A stretch of DNA of 10,266 nucleotides from an uncultured Oscillospiraceae bacterium (GTDB lineage Bacteria; Bacillota; Clostridia; Oscillospirales; Oscillospiraceae), in contig CAKTED010000036.1 in NCBI GenBank assembly GCA_934546725.1, positions 1 through 10,266 on the forward strand, given 5' to 3'. A program made the position numbers and the translations under genes. The notes beneath the pieces are model-generated. The model searched no databases, had not been told where the DNA came from, and was given only the letters and a program-made list of their open reading frames with translations. This document shows positions 2,121 to 10,266 of the stretch, piece after piece. The first letter of the stretch is position 1, and the number at the start of each line of letters is the position of its first letter.

Positions 2121-4364
2121 TCAGAATATCGCAATCTGTTCCTCGCCGGAATCCTCCGGCTTGAGCAGCGCGCCCGCCGCGGGCAGGCTCCGCACACGGT
2201 AGCGCGGAAGATTTTTTATCGCCGTTCTGTCCAGCCACTGCGCCGCCCGCAGGCGATACTTCGTCTTGAGAGTCATGACGGCCACGCCCTGTGTATCGCG
2301 CGAAGCCTTCGGCGCAAGCTGGGAGGAATTGAATATGAGCGCTCTGCCCTCCGTGGAGAACACGGCGATATCGCCCTCCTCCGTTATGGGCAGAATGGTT
2401 TTGAGCGCGGCTTTGTCGGAATACGCGCCCGTGAGCTTTTTGCGGTTCGTCTTCGTTGCATATGACGAAAGCTGCACCCTCGCCACCTTGCCGTTTTCGT
2501 AGAAGAACAGCAGCCCGGCGGAGTAATCTCCGGGATCCATGATGTATATCGGGCTCTCGCCCTCGTCCATCTGAAGCTTCGCGGGCAGGAACGTTCCGAG
2601 AGCCGAGGCCTTCGTATCCTCAAACTCGGATACACGCGTCTTATACACCTGGCATTTATCGGTAAATATGAGCAGCTCCGAGCAGTTCATGGCCTCAAAG
2701 CTCATGAACGCGCCGTCCTCTTCCTTATATTTCTGCTCGCTGTTCATGCGCAGAGACTGCGGCGTGATCTTCTTGAAATAGCCGTGGCGCGACATGAACA
2801 CCGTTACGGGGTACTCCTCCACCTCTTCGGCAACGCTCATGGCCTCGGCCACCTCATGCTCAAAAACTATTTCCGTTTTTCGCGGCTCGCCGTACTTCTT
2901 TGCAACGTTCTCCAGCTCGCCGATAATTATCTTCTTTATCCTCTCGCGCTTTTTCTCAATGTCCTCAAGGTCGGCTATCTCGGCCTCCAGCGCAGACTTC
3001 TCATCTACGCGGCGGAGGATATATTCGCGGTTTATGTTGCGAAGCTTTATCTCGGCGACATATTCAGCCTGGATCTCGTCTATCCCGAAGCCGACCATGA
3101 GGTTCGGCACAACGTCCGCCTCATGCTCCGTTTCGCGGATGATTTTTATGGCCTTGTCTATATCGAGCAGTATGCGCTCAAGACCCTGAAGAAGGTGCAG
3201 CTTTTCGCGCTTCTTCTCCAGCTCGAAATGTACTCTCCTGCGGACGGACTCAACGCGCCACGCCGTCCACTCGTCGAGTATCTCGCGCACGCCCATAACG
3301 CGCGGCATGCCCGCCACCAGAATATTGAAGTTGCAGGAAAATGTATCCATAAGCTGCGTTTTTTTGAAAAGCTTCTGCATGAGCTTTTCCGGATCTGTAC
3401 CGCGCTTGAGATCGATGGCAAGCTTGAGACCGCTCAGGTCGGTCTCGTCGCGCATGTCCGCTATCTCCTTCACAGCTCCCTGCTTTATAAGCTCCGCGAC
3501 CTTGTCCATTATGGCCTCCACCGTCGCGGTATAGGGTATCTGCCGGATCTCGATGATATTCTGATCCTTTATATATTCCCACCTTGCGCGAACGCGGAAG
3601 CTTCCGCGCCCGGTCTCATATATCTGCTCCATGGCCTCGCGGTTGAATACAAGCTCTCCGCCGGTTGGGAAATCCGGCGCGGGCAGCGTTTCAAAGAGGT
3701 CGCAGTCCGGATTTTTAATGAAGGCCACAGCAGTGCGGCAGACCTCGGCGAGGTTGAAGCCGCATATCATGCTCGCCATGCCTACGGCTATGCCCTGGTT
3801 GGACGAAACGAGGATGTTCGGAAACGTCGTGGGAAGCAGCGCCGGCTCCTTCATGCTGCCGTCATAATTGTCCACAAAGTCCACAGTATCGCGGTCTATG
3901 TCCCTGAATATCTCCGCACAGACGGGTGCAAGCTTCGCCTCGGTATAACGCGACGCGGCATACGCCATATCGCGCGAATAGACCTTACCAAAGTTGCCCT
4001 TCGAGTCAACGAACGGCGCAAGCAGCGCCTCGTGACCCTTTGAAAGGCGCACCATCGTTTCATATATTGCAGAATCGCCGTGCGGATTGAGCCGCATCGT
4101 CTGACCCACGATATTGGCAGACTTCGTTCTCGCGCCGCCGAGCAAGCCCATTTTGTACATGGTGTAAAGCAGCTTGCGGTGCGACGGCTTGAAGCCGTCT
4201 ATCTCCGGTATGGCGCGGGAAACGATAACGCTCATGGCGTAGGGCATATAATTCGTCTCCAGCGTATCGGTTATGGCCTGCTCAAGCACCTCCGCGCGCA
4301 GTCCCTCGACCTTTGAGGCGTCAACCTTCTTTGTCGAGCTTACTTCCTTCTTTTTTCTTGCCAT
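2121..4364 (-). CDS. parC: DNA topoisomerase IV subunit A (ParC-type type IIA topoisomerase)
   Basis: This 747-residue protein is the DNA-cleaving and rejoining subunit of a type IIA topoisomerase, expected to work as A2B2 with the ParE-like product encoded just upstream, and to relax and decatenate DNA. The start of the breakage-reunion domain reads MPYAMSVIVSRAIPEIDG (40-57), followed by KPSHRKLLYTM. The quinolone-determining stretch HGDSAIYE has Ser98 and Glu102, the residues usual in susceptible enzymes. The active-site pair is Arg139-Tyr140 in AASRYTEAKLAP. A coiled-coil-like charged helix lies near 370-480, and a beta-pinwheel-like C-terminal domain spans about 500-730. I see no GyrA box (QRRGGKG-like), which favours topoisomerase IV over gyrase; length matches ParC (about 750). 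The ATG at 4364 has AAAGGA about 9 bases upstream. It starts 32 bp after the parE stop, so the two subunits are probably made together. Confidence 0.9.
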   Translation of the reverse strand: MARKKKEVSSTKKVDASKVEGLRAEVLEQAITDTLETNYMPYAMSVIVSRAIPEIDGFKPSHRKLLYTMYKMGLLGGARTKSANIVGQTMRLNPHGDSAIYETMVRLSKGHEALLAPFVDSKGNFGKVYSRDMAYAASRYTEAKLAPVCAEIFRDIDRDTVDFVDNYDGSMKEPALLPTTFPNILVSSNQGIAVGMASMICGFNLAEVCRTAVAFIKNPDCDLFETLPAPDFPTGGELVFNREAMEQIYETGRGSFRVRARWEYIKDQNIIEIRQIPYTATVEAIMDKVAELIKQGAVKEIADMRDETDLSGLKLAIDLKRGTDPEKLMQKLFKKTQLMDTFSCNFNILVAGMPRVMGVREILDEWTAWRVESVRRRVHFELEKKREKLHLLQGLERILLDIDKAIKIIRETEHEADVVPNLMVGFGIDEIQAEYVAEIKLRNINREYILRRVDEKSALEAEIADLEDIEKKRERIKKIIIGELENVAKKYGEPRKTEIVFEHEVAEAMSVAEEVEEYPVTVFMSRHGYFKKITPQSLRMNSEQKYKEEDGAFMSFEAMNCSELLIFTDKCQVYKTRVSEFEDTKASALGTFLPAKLQMDEGESPIYIMDPGDYSAGLLFFYENGKVARVQLSSYATKTNRKKLTGAYSDKAALKTILPITEEGDIAVFSTEGRALIFNSSQLAPKASRDTQGVAVMTLKTKYRLRAAQWLDRTAIKNLPRYRVRSLPAAGALLKPEDSGEEQIAIF

Positions 4365-4396
4365 ATGATCGTTCCTTTAAAGAAATCAGTCAGTTT

Positions 4397-6382
4397 TTAC
4401 GAAATATCGGCCAGATCGAGATATTTGTAGCCGTTATCGGCAATATGATCCTTTCTTCCCGCGAGATTATCGCCAAGAAGCATATCAAAAACTCTTGCCG
4501 TTGCCTCAACGTCCGTGGGCATTACCTTTATGAGCCGCCGCGTCTCCGGGTTCATCGTGGTGAGCCACATCATCTCCGGATCGTTCTCGCCAAGACCCTT
4601 CGAGCGGTTTATGGTATATTTCGCATCGCCAAGGCTCTTTACTATATCCGCCTTTTCCCTGTCCGAGTAGGCAAACCAGGTCTTGTCCCTGCATTGTATC
4701 TCATAAAGCGGCGATTCCGCGATATAGACATAGCCCTCGTCTATCAGCGTGGGCGTAAGCCGGTAGAGCATTGTAAGGATAAGCGTTCTTATCTGGAAGC
4801 CGTCAACATCGGCATCCGTGCAGATGATGACCTTGTTCCAGCGCAGGTTATCAAGACTGAAGGCGCTCATGTCCCTGCTGTGGCGGTTTTGTATCTCAAC
4901 GCCGCAGCCCAGAACCTTGATGAGATCCGTTATTATTTCGCTCTTGAATATTTTGTCGTAATCCGCCTTGAGGCAGTTGAGGATCTTGCCGCGCACGGGC
5001 ATTATGCCCTGATACTCCGCATCCCGGCTCGTTTTGCAGGAGCCCAAGGCCGAGTCGCCCTCGACGATGTATATCTCGCGGCGGCTTACGTCCTTCGTGC
5101 GGCAGTCGACGAACTTCTGGATGCGGCTCGTTATGTCAACGCTGCCGGTTATCTTCTTTTTAATGTTCTGCCGCGCCTTCTCGGCCGTTTCGCGGCTGCG
5201 CTTGTTTATGAGCACCTGCTCGGCGATCTTCTCGGCATCCATATGGTTCTCGATAAAGTATACCTCGAGCCGCTCCTTGAAGAACTCCGTCATGGCGTCC
5301 TGAATGAATTTGTTCGTTATCGCCTTTTTCGTCTGGTTTTCATACGACGTGCGGTTGGAAAAGCAGTTCGTTACAAGGACAAGGCACTCCTGAATATCCA
5401 CGAAGCTTATTTTGCTCTCGTTCTTCTGATACTTGTTCTGGCTGCGGAGATAGGCGTCTATCGCCGAGACAAAGGCGCTGCGAACGGCCTTGTCCGGCGC
5501 GCCGCCGTGCTCCAGCCAGGAGGAGTTATGATAATATTCTATCCGGTTCACGCGGTTTGAAAAGCACATTGCGGCGGATATCTTAAGCTTGTATTCGCCC
5601 TTATCCTCTCTGTCGCGGCCCTTACGCTCCGTTTCCGTATAATACGGCAGCGTAAGCGAATCCTCGCCTGCTATCTCGCTGACGTAGTCTATTATGCCGT
5701 TTTCGTAAAGAAAGTCTGTTGTTTCAAATTTGCCCTTCCTCTGGCGGCGGAAGCGAAATGTTACACCTTTATTAACTACTGCCTGACGTTTCAGCACGTC
5801 GAGATAATACTCGTCCGGGATATCGATATCCGTAAAAACCTCGATATCCGGCTTCCAGCGCGTAAGGGTGCCGGTGCGCTTCCCCTTTTCCTCAACGCAG
5901 CTCAGGCCGCCGACATTCTGGCCCTTTTCAAAGTGGAGACTGTATTTTCTTCCGTCACGCCAGACGGTAACATCCATGTACTCGGATGAATACTGCGTCG
6001 CGCAGGCACCGAGGCCGTTCAGACCGAGGGAATACTCATAGTTTTCCCCTTCCTTATTATCATACTTGCCTCCGGCGTAAAGCTCGCAGTAGACCAGCTC
6101 CCAGTTATAGCGCTGCTCGTTGGGGTTAAAGTCCAGCGGGCAGCCGCGTCCAAAATCCTCCACCTCAATGGAGCCGTCCTCATAGGCTGTGAGCACAATG
6201 AGCTTGCCGTGCCCCTCGCGCGCCTCGTCTATGGAATTGGACAGGATCTCAAAAACGGCGTGCTCGCAGCCCTCAAGCCCATCCGAGCCGAATATGACGC
6301 CCGGCCGCAGTCTGACGCGATCCGCGCCCTTGAGCATGGATATGCTCTCGTTACCGTAATTTTCAGAGCCGCTCTTCTTCAT
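4397..6382 (-). CDS. parE: DNA topoisomerase IV subunit B (ParE-type ATPase)
   Basis: This 661-residue protein is the ATP-binding, strand-passage-driving subunit. The GHKL ATPase domain has the catalytic Glu45 and Mg-binding Asn49 in FEILSNSIDEA, the DFGRG motif (76-80) and the ATP-lid motif GLNGLGA (120-126). A transducer domain follows, with QTKKAI near 360. The Toprim domain has EGDSA (441-445), MPVRGKILN (461-469) and TDADVDG (522-528), the metal-binding residues of cleavage. KGLGE is at 595-599, and the C-terminal end is typical. It differs from textbook ParE in small ways: EGDSALG instead of EGDSAGG, and no KLG after QTK. Such variants fit the clostridial branch of these enzymes. The start at 6382 is supported by GGAGGG with a 5-base spacer. 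It is the first gene of the leftward run and is followed by parC. Gyrase B is the alternative name, but the pairing with a subunit A lacking a GyrA box argues for topoisomerase IV. Confidence 0.9.
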   Translation of the reverse strand: MKKSGSENYGNESISMLKGADRVRLRPGVIFGSDGLEGCEHAVFEILSNSIDEAREGHGKLIVLTAYEDGSIEVEDFGRGCPLDFNPNEQRYNWELVYCELYAGGKYDNKEGENYEYSLGLNGLGACATQYSSEYMDVTVWRDGRKYSLHFEKGQNVGGLSCVEEKGKRTGTLTRWKPDIEVFTDIDIPDEYYLDVLKRQAVVNKGVTFRFRRQRKGKFETTDFLYENGIIDYVSEIAGEDSLTLPYYTETERKGRDREDKGEYKLKISAAMCFSNRVNRIEYYHNSSWLEHGGAPDKAVRSAFVSAIDAYLRSQNKYQKNESKISFVDIQECLVLVTNCFSNRTSYENQTKKAITNKFIQDAMTEFFKERLEVYFIENHMDAEKIAEQVLINKRSRETAEKARQNIKKKITGSVDITSRIQKFVDCRTKDVSRREIYIVEGDSALGSCKTSRDAEYQGIMPVRGKILNCLKADYDKIFKSEIITDLIKVLGCGVEIQNRHSRDMSAFSLDNLRWNKVIICTDADVDGFQIRTLILTMLYRLTPTLIDEGYVYIAESPLYEIQCRDKTWFAYSDREKADIVKSLGDAKYTINRSKGLGENDPEMMWLTTMNPETRRLIKVMPTDVEATARVFDMLLGDNLAGRKDHIADNGYKYLDLADIS

Positions 6383-6411
6383 CAGTACCCTCCGTACATA
6401 AGTTTCATTGC

Positions 6412-6428
6412 ATACATTATAAATGTAT
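6412..6428. promoter_or_regulatory. Hyphenated palindrome over the parE -10 box, possible operator
   Basis: ATACAT and ATGTAT form perfect 6-base arms around a 5-base centre (TATAA). The site covers the candidate -10 box, where a bound repressor would block transcription of the topoisomerase operon. In AT-rich DNA such a palindrome can arise by chance, and no regulator gene is in the window. Confidence 0.3.
6416..6421 (-). promoter_or_regulatory. Candidate -10 box of the parE-parC promoter
   Basis: On the minus strand TATAAT lies 34 bases upstream of the parE ATG, which leaves room for a short leader containing the GGAGGG site. No convincing -35 box stands at 16-18 bases; a TTGATT is present but 23 bases away. 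The box lies inside a short hyphenated palindrome described separately. Confidence 0.5.
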
Positions 6429-6517
6429 CATATTGCGGCGGATAAATCAAGCCCGAGCTTTTGCTGTAAGGGTATTGCAAATTTTGCCGTGCTCTGCTGC
6501 ATGCTTTCCTTATTGCA

Positions 6518-6768
6518 CGTCATTAAGCGGAAGCGGCACGACCGAAGAATCCCACAAATCATGCTGTCATTCAGAGCCTGCGCAAGCAGGCGAAGAATCC
6601 CCCCGTTGGTTGCTGAAGGGCAGCGGCGGCCTCCTCTCAAGCTCTGCTGTCATTCTCGCGCTTTGCGTGGGAATCCCCTGGATGGTTCCACCAGGATAAC
6701 GACAACGTACTGCCCAGCCCCTGACTGGGGGATTCCACGGGGTACTGGCGCACCCCTCTGAATGACGG
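6518..6768. repeat. Cluster of dispersed-type intergenic repeats (TGTCATTC...GAATCC units)
   Basis: Four units share a start of the form [CT]GTCATT and an end near GAATCC, 30-40 bases each. Unit 0 is at 6518-6553 (degenerate start CGTCATTAAG, end GAAGAATCCC). Unit 1 is at 6565-6604, and unit 2 at 6648-6678. Unit 3 is inverted at 6727-6768 (GGGGATTCC ... CTCTGAATGACGG). Units 1 and 3 therefore form terminal inverted repeats of a segment of about 200 bp: TGTCATTCAGAG against the complement of CTCTGAATGACGG. Inside are small hairpins, CCTGG/CCAGG (6677-6695) and CCCAG/CTGGG (6713-6729). Repeats of this shape are common between genes in clostridial genomes. No long open frame with a ribosome binding site is present, so it is non-coding, like a REP or MITE relic. 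Confidence 0.6.
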
Positions 6769-6779
6769 AAACTTCAAGT

Positions 6780-6845
6780 CTCCGCGTCCACGGCGGCGAC
6801 CCTCCGCGTCCACGATGCACCGTCTCCGCGTCCGCATCCGCCGCC
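6780..6845. repeat. 22-bp periodic GC-rich repeat
   Basis: CTCCGCGTCC occurs at 6780, 6802 and 6824, exactly 22 bases apart; the first two copies extend to CTCCGCGTCCACG. The other half of each unit is divergent. It abuts the TGTCATTC repeat cluster and ends just before the AT-rich promoter region. With only three imperfect copies and no constant spacer-repeat pattern, it is not a CRISPR array. Confidence 0.55.
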
Positions 6846-6871
6846 TCACCCCGGCGGTGTAAATATATCAC

Positions 6872-6900
6872 TTGACATATTCGCCTATATTTGTTATATT
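6872..6900 (+). promoter_or_regulatory. Strong sigma-A-type promoter for the secreted DUF4430/peptidase-like gene
   Basis: TTGACA at 6872-6877 is followed after exactly 17 bases by TATATT at 6895-6900. The TG at 6892-6893 makes an extended -10 (TGTTATATT). Transcription would begin near 6907 and leave a leader of about 115 bases before the ATG at 7023. The leader is AT-rich. I see only a small CCCT/AGGG hairpin around 6977-6988 in it and recognise no riboswitch. Confidence 0.7.
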
Positions 6901-7008
6901 AAAATTAACTATAATTCTCCAATATATTAACTTGACATTTTGATGCAATTCATAATCGCTTATTAAATATGCTTACCCTGCCCGAGGGCTACAGATATAT
7001 TTTACAAC

Positions 7009-7015
7009 GAGGAGG
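7009..7015 (+). promoter_or_regulatory. Ribosome binding site fixing the start at 7023
   Basis: GAGGAGG lies 7 bases before the ATG at 7023. The in-frame ATG at 6969 has no such site and would put 18 polar residues in front of a classical signal peptide, so 7023 is preferred. Confidence 0.85.
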
Positions 7016-7022
7016 AACCAAC

Positions 7023-9191
7023 ATGTCAAAACGCATTGGAAAACTGCTGTCTCTCATTCTCGCGCTCACCCTTGTCCTGTCAGTCTGTCCGCCGGCCGGC
7101 GCCACGGACGACGATCCGGAAATCAGCGGCTACGCCACAATATCCGTCGAGGCCTTCACCATCGGCGGCGGATATCTTGTCGCTCCGGTATCCTTCCCCA
7201 TCCACGAGGGCGAAAACGCCGCCCAGACCCTGCTCCGTCTCCTTGACCAGTATGGCTACACATACCGCTATACCGGCAGGCCGGAGGCCAACTTCTATCT
7301 TTCCTCGCTCAGCGGCGGGCGGATCAATTATCTGCCGATAGACGCGAATGTCCCCGAGGTGCTGCGCGGGCAGATAGCCCTGCACGGCGGGATGAACGTG
7401 AATTACTCCAACCGCACCGCAGGCTCCCTCGGCGAATTCGACTATACCTCCGGCTCAGGCTGGATGTACTGTATCAACAACACTTTTCCCGAAGTTGGCT
7501 TCTCGGACAAAACGCTGCGCAACGGCGACGTAATGCGCGTTCAGTTCACCCTTGCATATGGGCGGGACATCGGCGGCAGCTATTCCATGGGTCCCGATTT
7601 CCCCGGCTCGGACTATTACCCCGTGCCGAACAAGGATGAGCTGACCGTCAGCATAGCCGAATTTCTAGGCGAAAACAATTATATTCCCGCTTCGGCTCTC
7701 GTTGAGGTCTCAAAGCTCTGCGAGGCTGACGAGGGCATGTACTATACCCCCGAGCAGATACACGCCATCGCCGTCTACCACGCGGGGTATACGGACGTTG
7801 ACCAGTACACCGTCGGAGACGAATACGTCCCGCTTTACGATAATTCCGGCGCATACTTTGCCTGCGCCGTCCCTCTGCTCGACGCTTCCGGCGCTCCGGC
7901 GGGGCACATAAACGTCGGCGCGATAAAAAACGGCCTGAATTTTTATCTGACGGATCCGTTTGCAAGCAACTACACCAATATAAAGACGCACGCCGATAAC
8001 GGCGAATGCGTCAGATATTCCCCGCCCTTCATATACTATCTTGCCGACCCTGAAGCGGAGCAGCAGTACGGCTATCCGCCAAATTCAAACGTCTCCGTCC
8101 AGTCCGATACGGCGGATGCGCAGGAGGAAATACCGTTTACGGCAAACAGCGATTATTTTAACGACAAAAATTATCAGCGAAACAAAACCTTCCTTGAATG
8201 GCTCGAGCTTCAGAACGCGCGCAGCAATCCGTCGCTCGGAAGCGGCGAGCTTCGCCGGGTCCATAACAGGGCTCTGATGAGCTGGCTCACATGGAAGGAC
8301 TCTCTCGGCGAAGCCGGAGAAGCGCTCAGCACCTCGGGAGAAAACCTTTCCGTCGGCCTTGCCTGCGACCTCACCTCCGAGCGCTACGCCTCGATATCTG
8401 AAGGTAACCGCGTTTATTACGGCGGCAACCAGAGCTGGGTTCCAGATGATTTTACTTTCAGACGCAATACCACGCGGGATACCATGACGGCTGAACTCTT
8501 CAGAGAAAAGGGCTGCGGCGCCGTGGCCTTTGCCGACTGTATTCTGTATTATATCCAGAAGGATTACGCAACCTATTACAAGCTGCTGAAGCATAATCAT
8601 GAATCCAAATATATTTTTGACCTCACCACAGATATTCGGAATCCCGACTACGATAATTTCAACGAATGGTATACACTTTCAGCAGACGGTACCATGAGTA
8701 AGGAAACCTATCTCGACTTTTTGGACTTTTATGCTTCCATGGGAGAAATCCCCAGTAAATCAGGTACTTCATTGGACGATTTGGATATAGCATTTTTGGC
8801 CTTAAGCGACCACACAGATTACAACGCTGTTAAAAGCTTTCCGGTAAAAGGCTTGTTTCCATCTCATGACATCGAAACAGTCGAAAACTTTTTAATTGAA
8901 CAGTTAAGCAATGGCGTACCTGTTTTTTTTCTTAATTCAAATGTCGACAATAAAATAACTCAATACCTTTTAAATGATCCTGAGCAGGCCGCTGCCGTCG
9001 GATTGAGTAAAATTCAAAATTTTGATAATCATTGGATGACAGCAACAAAATTTTTCCGCAACGTTACTTTTGGAGATACTCACATTGCCTTTGCCACCTG
9101 GGGAAGGCGCATTTCCATTAACGTTGAGCTTCTGCAGCTGGACGGAAAATACTATCCACATTTTTACGCATACAAAATTATTCCGGACTGA
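7023..9191 (+). CDS. Secreted DUF4430-domain protein with C-terminal papain-like (C39-like) peptidase region
   Basis: This 722-residue protein begins with a signal peptide (MSKRIGK, then a hydrophobic core) and a likely signal peptidase I site after AGA (residue 27). Cys22 is not in a good lipobox, so secretion is more likely than lipid anchoring. Residues about 38-180 look like DUF4430 (PF14478, a beta-grasp-like fold): GSGWMYCINN (143-153) and the closing LRNGDVMRVQFTLAYG. Residues 210-480 have no domain I can name. The C-terminal part has the motif order of a papain-like peptidase: EKGCGAVAFADCILYY with candidate nucleophile Cys498, NHWM with His670, and ATWGRR at 691-696, as in C39-like families. 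The peptidase call rests on motifs only. The final ~200 residues are encoded by much more AT-rich DNA than the rest. Two paralogous membrane protein genes follow, the first 14 bp after the stop with its ribosome binding site overlapping that stop, so they form one transcription unit from the promoter at 6872. Confidence 0.8.
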   Translation: MSKRIGKLLSLILALTLVLSVCPPAGATDDDPEISGYATISVEAFTIGGGYLVAPVSFPIHEGENAAQTLLRLLDQYGYTYRYTGRPEANFYLSSLSGGRINYLPIDANVPEVLRGQIALHGGMNVNYSNRTAGSLGEFDYTSGSGWMYCINNTFPEVGFSDKTLRNGDVMRVQFTLAYGRDIGGSYSMGPDFPGSDYYPVPNKDELTVSIAEFLGENNYIPASALVEVSKLCEADEGMYYTPEQIHAIAVYHAGYTDVDQYTVGDEYVPLYDNSGAYFACAVPLLDASGAPAGHINVGAIKNGLNFYLTDPFASNYTNIKTHADNGECVRYSPPFIYYLADPEAEQQYGYPPNSNVSVQSDTADAQEEIPFTANSDYFNDKNYQRNKTFLEWLELQNARSNPSLGSGELRRVHNRALMSWLTWKDSLGEAGEALSTSGENLSVGLACDLTSERYASISEGNRVYYGGNQSWVPDDFTFRRNTTRDTMTAELFREKGCGAVAFADCILYYIQKDYATYYKLLKHNHESKYIFDLTTDIRNPDYDNFNEWYTLSADGTMSKETYLDFLDFYASMGEIPSKSGTSLDDLDIAFLALSDHTDYNAVKSFPVKGLFPSHDIETVENFLIEQLSNGVPVFFLNSNVDNKITQYLLNDPEQAAAVGLSKIQNFDNHWMTATKFFRNVTFGDTHIAFATWGRRISINVELLQLDGKYYPHFYAYKIIPD

Positions 9192-9205
9192 AGGAGGACC
9201 GTCTA

Positions 9206-9652
9206 ATGTATCCTTTGGATTATGTAGCCGACTATACGCCTGAACAGCTTGCTGATATTGCCTGCGAGTTATTCATGAAGAACGTTTATAATAGTCCCCC
9301 ATTTGAAATTTTCCTTTTTCTCATGCCGGTACTGACCATTGCTCTCTCCTTTTGCAAAAGAAAGCTTTGGGGACTTCTTCCTTCCTTCTGCATCGGTATT
9401 GCCGTAATTTTACAAACCATCATTATGCTTTTCAAAACAAGTCTGTTCTACGGCATCCGGACAGAACCGGTGATGTGTGTTTACTCATATCCTTATTATG
9501 TATATTTCGCGCTTTTTCGCAGGCTGTTTATCTGCCTCGCTCTGTTCTTCGCGATACATTACGGCTTCCCCGTTCTCAAAAGGCACGTGCAGCACAAGAG
9601 GGAAATCAGCCAGTACATGAAGTTCAAACGTGAGCAGGATAAGCTGGAATGA
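9206..9652 (+). CDS. Small three-helix membrane protein, tandem paralogue 1 (MYPLDY family, unrecognised)
   Basis: I do not recognise this 148-residue family. No signal peptide is visible. An acidic N-terminal segment (1-32, with MYPLDY and ELADIA-like parts) precedes three hydrophobic segments at about 33-49, 56-76 and 101-118. The loop between the first two is basic (KRKLW). The C-terminal tail KRHVQHKREISQYMKFKREQ is strongly basic. By the positive-inside rule the tail and first loop are cytoplasmic, and the N-terminus and the 77-100 loop are outside. AAGGAGG at 9191-9197 sits 8 bases before the ATG and overlaps the stop of the preceding secreted protein gene, pointing to translational coupling. 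A close paralogue follows 37 bp downstream. With 32 differences over 148 ungapped residues (manual count), the pair is about 78% identical. Possible roles include a membrane partner, anchor or protective factor for the secreted protein; this is inference. Confidence 0.85.
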   Translation: MYPLDYVADYTPEQLADIACELFMKNVYNSPPFEIFLFLMPVLTIALSFCKRKLWGLLPSFCIGIAVILQTIIMLFKTSLFYGIRTEPVMCVYSYPYYVYFALFRRLFICLALFFAIHYGFPVLKRHVQHKREISQYMKFKREQDKLE

Positions 9653-9689
9653 TTCCACTAATGACTGACCCGCAAAGGAGGTTTATATA

Positions 9690-10154
9690 ATGTATCCTTT
9701 GGACTATGCAGTCGACTATACGCCTGAGGAGCTTGCTGACATTGCATGCGAATTGTTTATGCATGACGTTTATAATAGTCCGCCATTTGAAATCATTCTT
9801 TTTCTCATGCCCGTACTGACCATTGCTCTCTCCATTTCCAAAAAGGAAATTCGTGGGCTTATACCGTCCTTCTGCATCGGTCTTGCAATAATTGTGCAAA
9901 CCATCATCATGCTTTTCAAAACACGTCTATTTTACGGAATCTGTACAGACCCACCGTTCATTGTTCCCCCATTTTCCGGTTTTGTTTACAGAGCACTTTT
10001 CTCCAAGCTGTTTATCTGCCTCGCATTGTTCTTCGCGATACATTACGGCTTCCCCGTTCTCAAAAGGCATGTGCAGCACAAGAGGGAAATCAGCCAGTAC
10101 ATGAAGTTTAAACGTGAGCAGGATAAGCCGGAATACAGGGATTCCGGTAATTAA
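9690..10154 (+). CDS. Small three-helix membrane protein, tandem paralogue 2 (MYPLDY family, unrecognised)
   Basis: This 154-residue protein has the same layout as the gene before it: the MYPLDY start, three hydrophobic segments and a basic tail, plus six extra C-terminal residues. Residues 107-146 are identical to paralogue 1. Residues 85-106, predicted to be mostly an external loop, differ at 14 of 22 positions without any insertion or deletion. The loop between helices 1 and 2 also differs (49-58). At DNA level the last 126 shared coding bases differ at about 5 positions, far fewer than the upstream half. AAAGGAGG ends 8 bases before the ATG. The stop at 10152-10154 overlaps the ribosome binding site of the next gene. 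This arrangement suggests a recent tandem duplication inside an operon, with the loop under different pressure from the tail. The function is unknown. Confidence 0.85.
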   Translation: MYPLDYAVDYTPEELADIACELFMHDVYNSPPFEIILFLMPVLTIALSISKKEIRGLIPSFCIGLAIIVQTIIMLFKTRLFYGICTDPPFIVPPFSGFVYRALFSKLFICLALFFAIHYGFPVLKRHVQHKREISQYMKFKREQDKPEYRDSGN

Positions 10155-10168
10155 GGAGGTTTTCTGAT

Positions 10169-10266
10169 ATGTCTCCTGCCGCCGAAATGTTTCTTTATAA
10201 CATTTGTCAAAACGTTGCAGTTGCTATTATTTTCCTTTTGCTGCCCCTTGCTGCAATTCTGCTCTC
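10169..10266 (+). CDS. Start of a third, divergent small membrane protein (partial)
   Basis: Only 32 codons and two bases are visible before the window ends. ATG at 10169 follows AAGGAGG (10153-10159) by 9 bases; this site overlaps the previous stop codon. The product begins MSPAAEMFLYNICQNV and then runs into a hydrophobic segment (VAIIFLLLPLAAILLS). It aligns without gaps to residues 21-48 of the two preceding proteins: E-x-F-x-x-N at the start, P at the same point in the hydrophobic helix, and I, L and S at the end (about 8 identical of 28, plus several conservative changes). It lacks the first ~15 residues of the family, including MYPLDY. I read it as a distant third member of the tandem array. 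The alternative is an unrelated small membrane protein with chance similarity between hydrophobic helices. Confidence 0.65.
   Translation, partial: MSPAAEMFLYNICQNVAVAIIFLLLPLAAILL

Follow-up and report, generated by a model that had tools for sequence, protein, structure and literature searches.

A candidate toxin–immunity-like operon of a putative zymogen-type cysteine peptidase and tandem three-transmembrane proteins in an uncultured Oscillospiraceae bacterium

We analyzed a stretch of 10,266 nucleotides from an uncultured Oscillospiraceae bacterium (contig CAKTED010000036.1; hereafter, the window). A compact run of plus-strand genes at its right end encodes a 722-residue protein followed by small proteins with three predicted transmembrane (TM) segments. 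We consider it fairly probable that this run is a toxin–immunity-like operon, in which a polymorphic-toxin-like zymogen protease is paired with tandem 3-TM membrane immunity proteins. An earlier note on this DNA had offered three roles without committing to any of them: a surface complex, a processing and export system, or an effector with protective factors. The last was favored over the other two because the peptidase domain is a C-terminal tip, its carriers differ, anchored partners and tandem paralogues accompany it, and the composition breaks within the gene. We postulate that a secreted papain-fold cysteine peptidase would be held inactive by its own pro-domain and borne on a DUF4430 scaffold. 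Its C-terminal domain, released outside the cell, would attack an extracytoplasmic target of neighboring cells, either a peptide of the wall or a protein at the surface. In the producer and its kin, the tandem 3-TM proteins would stop the peptidase on the external side of the membrane, probably via a variable outside loop, and the paralogues would cover variant tips. Export, proteolytic activity, toxicity, the target, and protection by the small proteins are what we infer; the architecture, predicted fold, zymogen-like model, differing carriers of the tip, tip–partner linkage, and composition break were computed as follows.

Four parts make up the 722-residue protein (Table 1). A signal-like N-terminus comes first, followed by a DUF4430 region and then a pro-domain; the C-terminal part is a papain-fold cysteine peptidase. 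The earlier note had guessed both DUF4430 and a peptidase-like nature. The former was confirmed by PF14478, which scored 32.6 bits against a cut-off of 23.8 over profile positions 32–70 of 72; the latter was backed by a model of the catalytic domain with a papain fold and a predicted local distance difference test score (pLDDT) of 90.4. The fold, the oxyanion glutamine, and the catalytic cysteine and histidine of papain-like peptidases were all present, and an (S/T)WG motif is conserved after the histidine. The alignments contained no invariant Asp or Asn as a third catalytic residue. The window protein showed no match at E up to 1 to Peptidase C10 (PF01640), Peptidase_C39_2 (PF13529), or the LXG domain (PF04740); three relatives scored below the PF13529 cut-off of 24 (L002, 22.4; L005, 19.4; L069, 18.2). 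The top structural matches of a model with both pro-domain and catalytic domain were the zymogens proSpeB, prostaphopain B, and prointerpain A, with 252–279 residues aligned at a root-mean-square deviation of 5.2–5.7 A, compared with approximately 200 residues for mature forms. In the model, the two domains thus sit in a zymogen arrangement. Sequence searches for solved relatives with queries A1, A2, A6, and A7 returned none that was significant. A weak Foldseek match was obtained with PDB entry 9l5u, titled as a papain-like cysteine protease toxin/immunity pair, which is presumably Cpe1–Cpi1.

The zymogen matches also speak for the main rival explanation. The peptidase could be a nutritional or surface-remodeling protease, and the membrane proteins would then guard the producer only, with no rival cell attacked, as in SpeB–Spi, staphopain–staphostatin, and Bfp–Bfi. 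According to the accessible parts of two reports, SpeB, the staphopains, and the Bacteroides C10 proteases are zymogens with adjacent small inhibitor genes that are co-transcribed with the protease genes, some of the inhibitors being predicted lipoproteins (PMC2873492, PMC3462683). We regard this explanation as rather unlikely, and the distribution of the catalytic tip bears on it.

Relatives of the tip were searched by protein database, genome scan, and profiles (profile threshold E up to 1e-10). The protein search with the C-terminal half returned two proteins only, and the first genome scan returned six loci. Profile matches were found in 17 of 299 genomes of one family, 15 of 296 of one order, and 17 of 391 of one class, with genomes partly shared between these samples. 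In its distant relatives, the catalytic domain forms the C-terminal tip of differing carriers, namely LXG, vWA, and secreted pro-domain proteins. Among the relatives scanned, L068 carries an LXG domain (PF04740) and L005 and L069 carry vWA domains; a vWA match in L071 and TSP3 repeats in carriers were below the cut-off. The 582-residue tip-bearing protein of L067 (4–9398) has no Pfam match and lies among type VII-like neighbors, which include FtsK/SpoIIIE-type, YukD-like (just below the cut-off), and FHA proteins. Pro-domain and catalytic domain are both common to the secreted relatives, several of which are accompanied by one partner gene, an arrangement that would also suit self-protection. 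Genome G004 holds four short C-terminal tip pieces besides one longer copy; three pieces (C10, C167, C188) are carrier-less and one (C36) lies at a contig start, and each of the four is followed by a gene for an anchored protein. By sequence, the family therefore shows the polymorphic-toxin pattern of a C-terminal tip on variable, presumably exported carriers (LXG, vWA, pro-domain, DUF4430). Separately, we observed 13 standalone relatives of 209–310 residues (L020–L026, L028–L031, L033, L034), most of which open straight with the domain. None has a partner as defined below, L024 and L028 being followed by longer anchored proteins, and the 13 are a separate, possibly cytosolic branch.

Partner genes were defined by three criteria: a length of up to 300 codons, a hydrophobic anchor at the N-terminus of the product, and a position within 130 bp downstream. 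Anchors were called by hydropathy, gene calls were the longest open reading frames (ORFs), and genes of at least 150 residues from the same loci served as controls. Of the 32 scaffolded or tip-fragment loci, which include the window, 25 had a partner, as did 5 of 23 standalone loci and 24 of 237 controls (Fisher p 9e-16 and 4e-5), several of the counted loci being close relatives, with the near-identical L038, L039, L040, and L042 retained. The other 7 of the 32 loci had no partner. Duplicates (L007–L012, L017, L065) were left out of this count, 20 short loci were swapped for longer sequences covering them, contig ends led to the exclusion of L006 and L073, and L075 was not entered because the ORF of its tip piece had not been selected. 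Fragments shorter than 190 residues, among them L077, which is cut by a contig start, were pooled with the scaffolded class; the 448-residue secreted L080 was classed as standalone. Longer anchored neighbors at L024 (412 residues), L028 (472), and L083 (412) were not counted as partners.

The 29 partner proteins fell into eight BLASTP clusters, six from scaffolded loci and two (L003, L060) from standalone relatives; this clustering used slightly different limits from the count, drew on 1.1–4 kb of DNA downstream at each locus, and did not capture L071. Tandem paralogous partners occurred at 6 of 29 loci, including L067 and L069 with three each and L072, whose tandem partner is only a 51-residue fragment. 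All three partners at L067 could be aligned to those of L066, L068, and L082. With its type VII-like neighbors and three tandem anchored paralogues, L067 is a cleaner test case than the window. Judged by sequence and position, a candidate immunity gene is thus linked downstream of the tip.

The window gene itself breaks in composition. The G+C content at third codon positions (GC3) of the 722-residue gene is 0.69 up to codon 523, which lies in the catalytic domain, and drops to 0.39 beyond it. The value before the break equals that of the neighboring ParE, ParC, YitT, and transglutaminase-like genes (0.69–0.73), and the small-protein genes lie at 0.51–0.53, below these host genes and above the tip. 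The control genes ParE (11/1000 shuffles) and YitT (48/1000) showed weaker steps near an end. At the 26 other scaffolded loci, the GC3 of the domain was at most 0.08 below and up to 0.18 above that of the scaffold; most of these loci have low GC3 anyway, and the evidence from a GC3 step is limited to the window. In the close homologue P0001, the scaffold is identical at 410 of 426 positions, residues 491–645 at 112 of 154, and residues 646–722 at 72 of 77. The tip of P0130 has the opposite profile (128/155 and 59/77). Exchange within and around the tip would give such a pattern. The tip region is a module of foreign composition; at the sequence level, the carrier-less G004 pieces, the GC3 break of the window, and the tip divergence point to tip exchange and standalone cassettes.

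These observations weigh against the self-protection reading. The carriers with LXG or vWA domains, the carrier-less tips, the type VII-like neighborhood, and the composition break argue for exchangeable conflict tips. In addition, the secreted relatives L041, L046, and L047 have no partner at all, and the accessible descriptions of the SpeB, staphopain, and Bacteroides C10 systems contain no 3-TM inhibitor. The window operon resembles SpeB–Spi, staphopain–staphostatin, and Bfp–Bfi in its putatively exported zymogen, a similar pro-domain arrangement in the model, and an adjacent co-encoded small protein. However, Spi and the staphostatins act in the cytoplasm and the Bacteroides inhibitors are predicted to be periplasmic or lipoproteins, as far as the available text describes (PMC2873492, PMC3462683); tandem 3-TM proteins and a DUF4430 scaffold are found in the window alone within this comparison.

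The two small proteins encoded in full share 78% identity, in agreement with their earlier description as close paralogues. Their family is rare; besides the cluster of the window itself, the protein database lists seven others (eight in total), and the contigs are no longer than 4,701 bases. It was found in 0 of 391 sampled genomes by a search that had no positive control and is hence uninformative. The family could not be assigned to any known system in the earlier note, and this still applies, as profiles of Pfam, NCBIfam, PHROG, PADLOC, and PDB gave no match at a meaningful score. Hydropathy and charge suggest three TM segments with the N-terminus outside and a basic C-tail inside. The paralogues differ at 13 of 24 positions in the outside loop, 5 of 32 in the N-terminal segment, 3 of 18 in TM1, 4 of 6 in the short inside segment, 4 of 22 in TM2, 2 of 18 in TM3, and 1 of 28 in the C-tail. 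Conservation across eight members of the family is lowest in the outside loop (0.59). The tail motif YMKFKREQDK is kept even in the most distant member, P0128 (39% identical), which is unusual for a tail unlikely to touch the toxin.

This conserved cytoplasmic tail, otherwise unexplained, could point to a response inside the cell. We speculate, as an unlikely extension, that the 3-TM proteins are a new type of membrane immunity receptor, in which the loop reads the tip, the nearly invariant YMKFKREQDK tail engages a common cellular machine or signals an attack, and loop and tip co-diversify as a cassette under resident scaffolds. Protection would then need both recognition outside and a response inside. 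The constant part of the family can also be read differently; TM3 and the tail, following variable segments, could be a recognition part for the peptidase, which would mature the small proteins as precursors of signals or surface peptides. C39 domains cut leader peptides, according to the accessible part of one survey (PMC3482391). Nevertheless, we consider such processing improbable, because the conserved tail is predicted to be cytoplasmic while the peptidase looks exported, and because the partners encoded at other loci belong to separate sequence clusters and resemble globular proteins with an anchor, or lipoproteins.

The small proteins might also be lineage-specific membrane proteins that merely share a transcript with the peptidase gene. 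The absence of the family from the sampled genomes and a single direct co-occurrence would fit such coincidence. However, the small-gene GC3 below that of the host genes, even if above the tip, argues against it, as do the tight gene spacing and the membrane-anchored genes that fill the same position in relatives. In addition, the longest contig listed has 4,701 bases for both P0128, of the small family, and P0130, a tip protein, which suggests that their genes are linked. Coincidence is thus very improbable in our view, and the window together with the P0128/P0130 match makes the link between the 3-TM family and the protease suggestive.

Within a toxin–immunity-like operon, the closest described kind of effector is, on our best reading, Tox-PLC39, compared by description. 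A 2012 survey (Zhang et al., PMC3482391) places toxin peptidases at the C-terminus of polymorphic toxins; its accessible table entry for Tox-PLC39 names Firmicutes among the lineages, catalytic C, H, and D, and a dash for immunity. Both have a C39-like papain-fold domain as the (putative) toxin of exported proteins, whereas the window and its relatives show no invariant Asp, membrane-anchored partners, and a pro-domain. TelC–TipC of Streptococcus intermedius is an LXG system in which, in the available text (PMC6193138), the exported toxin acts outside the membrane and the membrane-anchored immunity protein has several paralogous genes in the operon. Unlike the window protein, which has no LXG match, TelC is a lipid II phosphatase that uses the type VII secretion system (T7SS), and TipC has one TM segment and a globular outer domain. 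In EsxX–ExiCD, polytopic membrane proteins protect against a toxin at the outer side of the membrane; however, EsxX is a membrane-depolarizing glycine-zipper toxin, and ExiC and ExiD are both required (PMC12744356, from the part accessible). TipC and ExiC/ExiD are likened to the small proteins here by description, not by sequence. Cpe1–Cpi1 likewise comprises a papain-like protease acting between bacteria and an immunity protein, but is described in the accessible text as Gram-negative, with cleavage of GyrB and ParE (PMC12136450). Searches of open-licence literature (titles and abstract starts) on DUF4430, C39, LXG/T7SS, and papain-like protease with immunity returned no description of a protease paired with 3-TM proteins.

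Table 1. Features of the operon and its surroundings in the window.
Feature	Position	Strand	Basis or remark
Sigma-70-type promoter-like site, TTGACA-17-TATATT	6872..6900	+	Consensus scan, 11/12; in itself no proof of function
722-residue gene, secreted zymogen-type cysteine peptidase (putative toxin)	7023..9191	+	
Signal-peptide-like N-terminal segment, residues 1–27	7023..7103	+	Read from sequence
DUF4430 match, residues 136–175	7428..7547	+	PF14478, E 1.1e-7
Pro-domain, about residues 239–341	7737..8045	+	Common to secreted relatives; zymogen-like in two-domain model
Papain-fold catalytic domain, residues 452–722	8376..9188	+	Gln470, Cys498, His670, Trp693-Gly694
GC3 change point	8592	.	0/1000 shuffles reach the step
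Small 3-TM membrane protein 1, 148 residues	9206..9652	+	Candidate immunity protein
Predicted outside loop, protein 1	9440-9511	+	Variable
Small 3-TM membrane protein 2, 154 residues	9690..10154	+	Paralogue of protein 1
Predicted outside loop, protein 2	9924-9995	+	Variable
C-tails of small proteins	9566-9649 and 10050-10151		
Third small membrane-protein-like frame	10169..10266	+	Start ATG 10169; 32 codons to contig end

The gene layout largely agrees with the earlier note, which had proposed one promoter for the run and a ribosome-binding site at each start. A promoter-like site lies upstream, with TG preceding its second hexamer, and the sole terminator-like site within 6383–10266 is at 6488, ahead of the operon genes. 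The gaps between the genes are 14, 37, and 14 bp, and an AGGAGG-type site precedes all four starts (7009, 9191, 9675, 10153). Two of these sites overlap the stop codon of the preceding gene, rather than three overlapping or abutting it as had been stated. The third frame gave nothing meaningful against P0128 by BLASTP, its 32 residues being too short a query to judge kinship; because of this length, it is not assignable to the small family.

Upstream, on the opposite strand (2121–6382), are genes that we take to encode topoisomerase IV ParC and ParE. The best ParE match in 245 sampled genomes was 74% identical; therefore, the lineage of the window has no close representation among them. Cpe1, a different papain-like toxin, targets ParE, and the position of parE beside the operon is probably coincidence. 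Between parE and the operon, 6595–6735 contains an imperfect 21-nt inverted repeat, which we guess to be a small dispersed repeat element. The minus strand of 1–2084 encodes a protein with a weak, below-cut-off transglutaminase-core match, and its frame shares a few bases with that of a YitT/DUF2179 membrane protein. Other origins and roles were rejected. As to viral or phage origin, the small family and the tip pattern had no match in viral contigs, the window proteins had none in PHROGs, and the L002 tip had none in phages (the window tip was not searched there). As to plasmid origin, the window tip had no match and the L002 tip had one weak match, to a 2.1-Mb Fusobacterium record. For anti-phage defense, PADLOC gave no meaningful match, a 2TM effector model at E 0.029 being judged as chance.

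This kind of weapon is already known; the window combines a C-terminal peptidase tip, putative membrane immunity, and features of zymogen–inhibitor pairs. The comparison yields candidate immunity genes for C39-like tips in eight clusters, six of them from scaffolded loci; a membrane anchor was the selection criterion for all of these genes, tandem copies occur, and one set adjoins type VII secretion genes. If the proposed reading is true, a SpeB-like zymogen module would be an interbacterial weapon in Bacillota. Protease–inhibitor operons of secreted proteases and toxin–immunity operons would then form one continuum, which could be tested pairwise.

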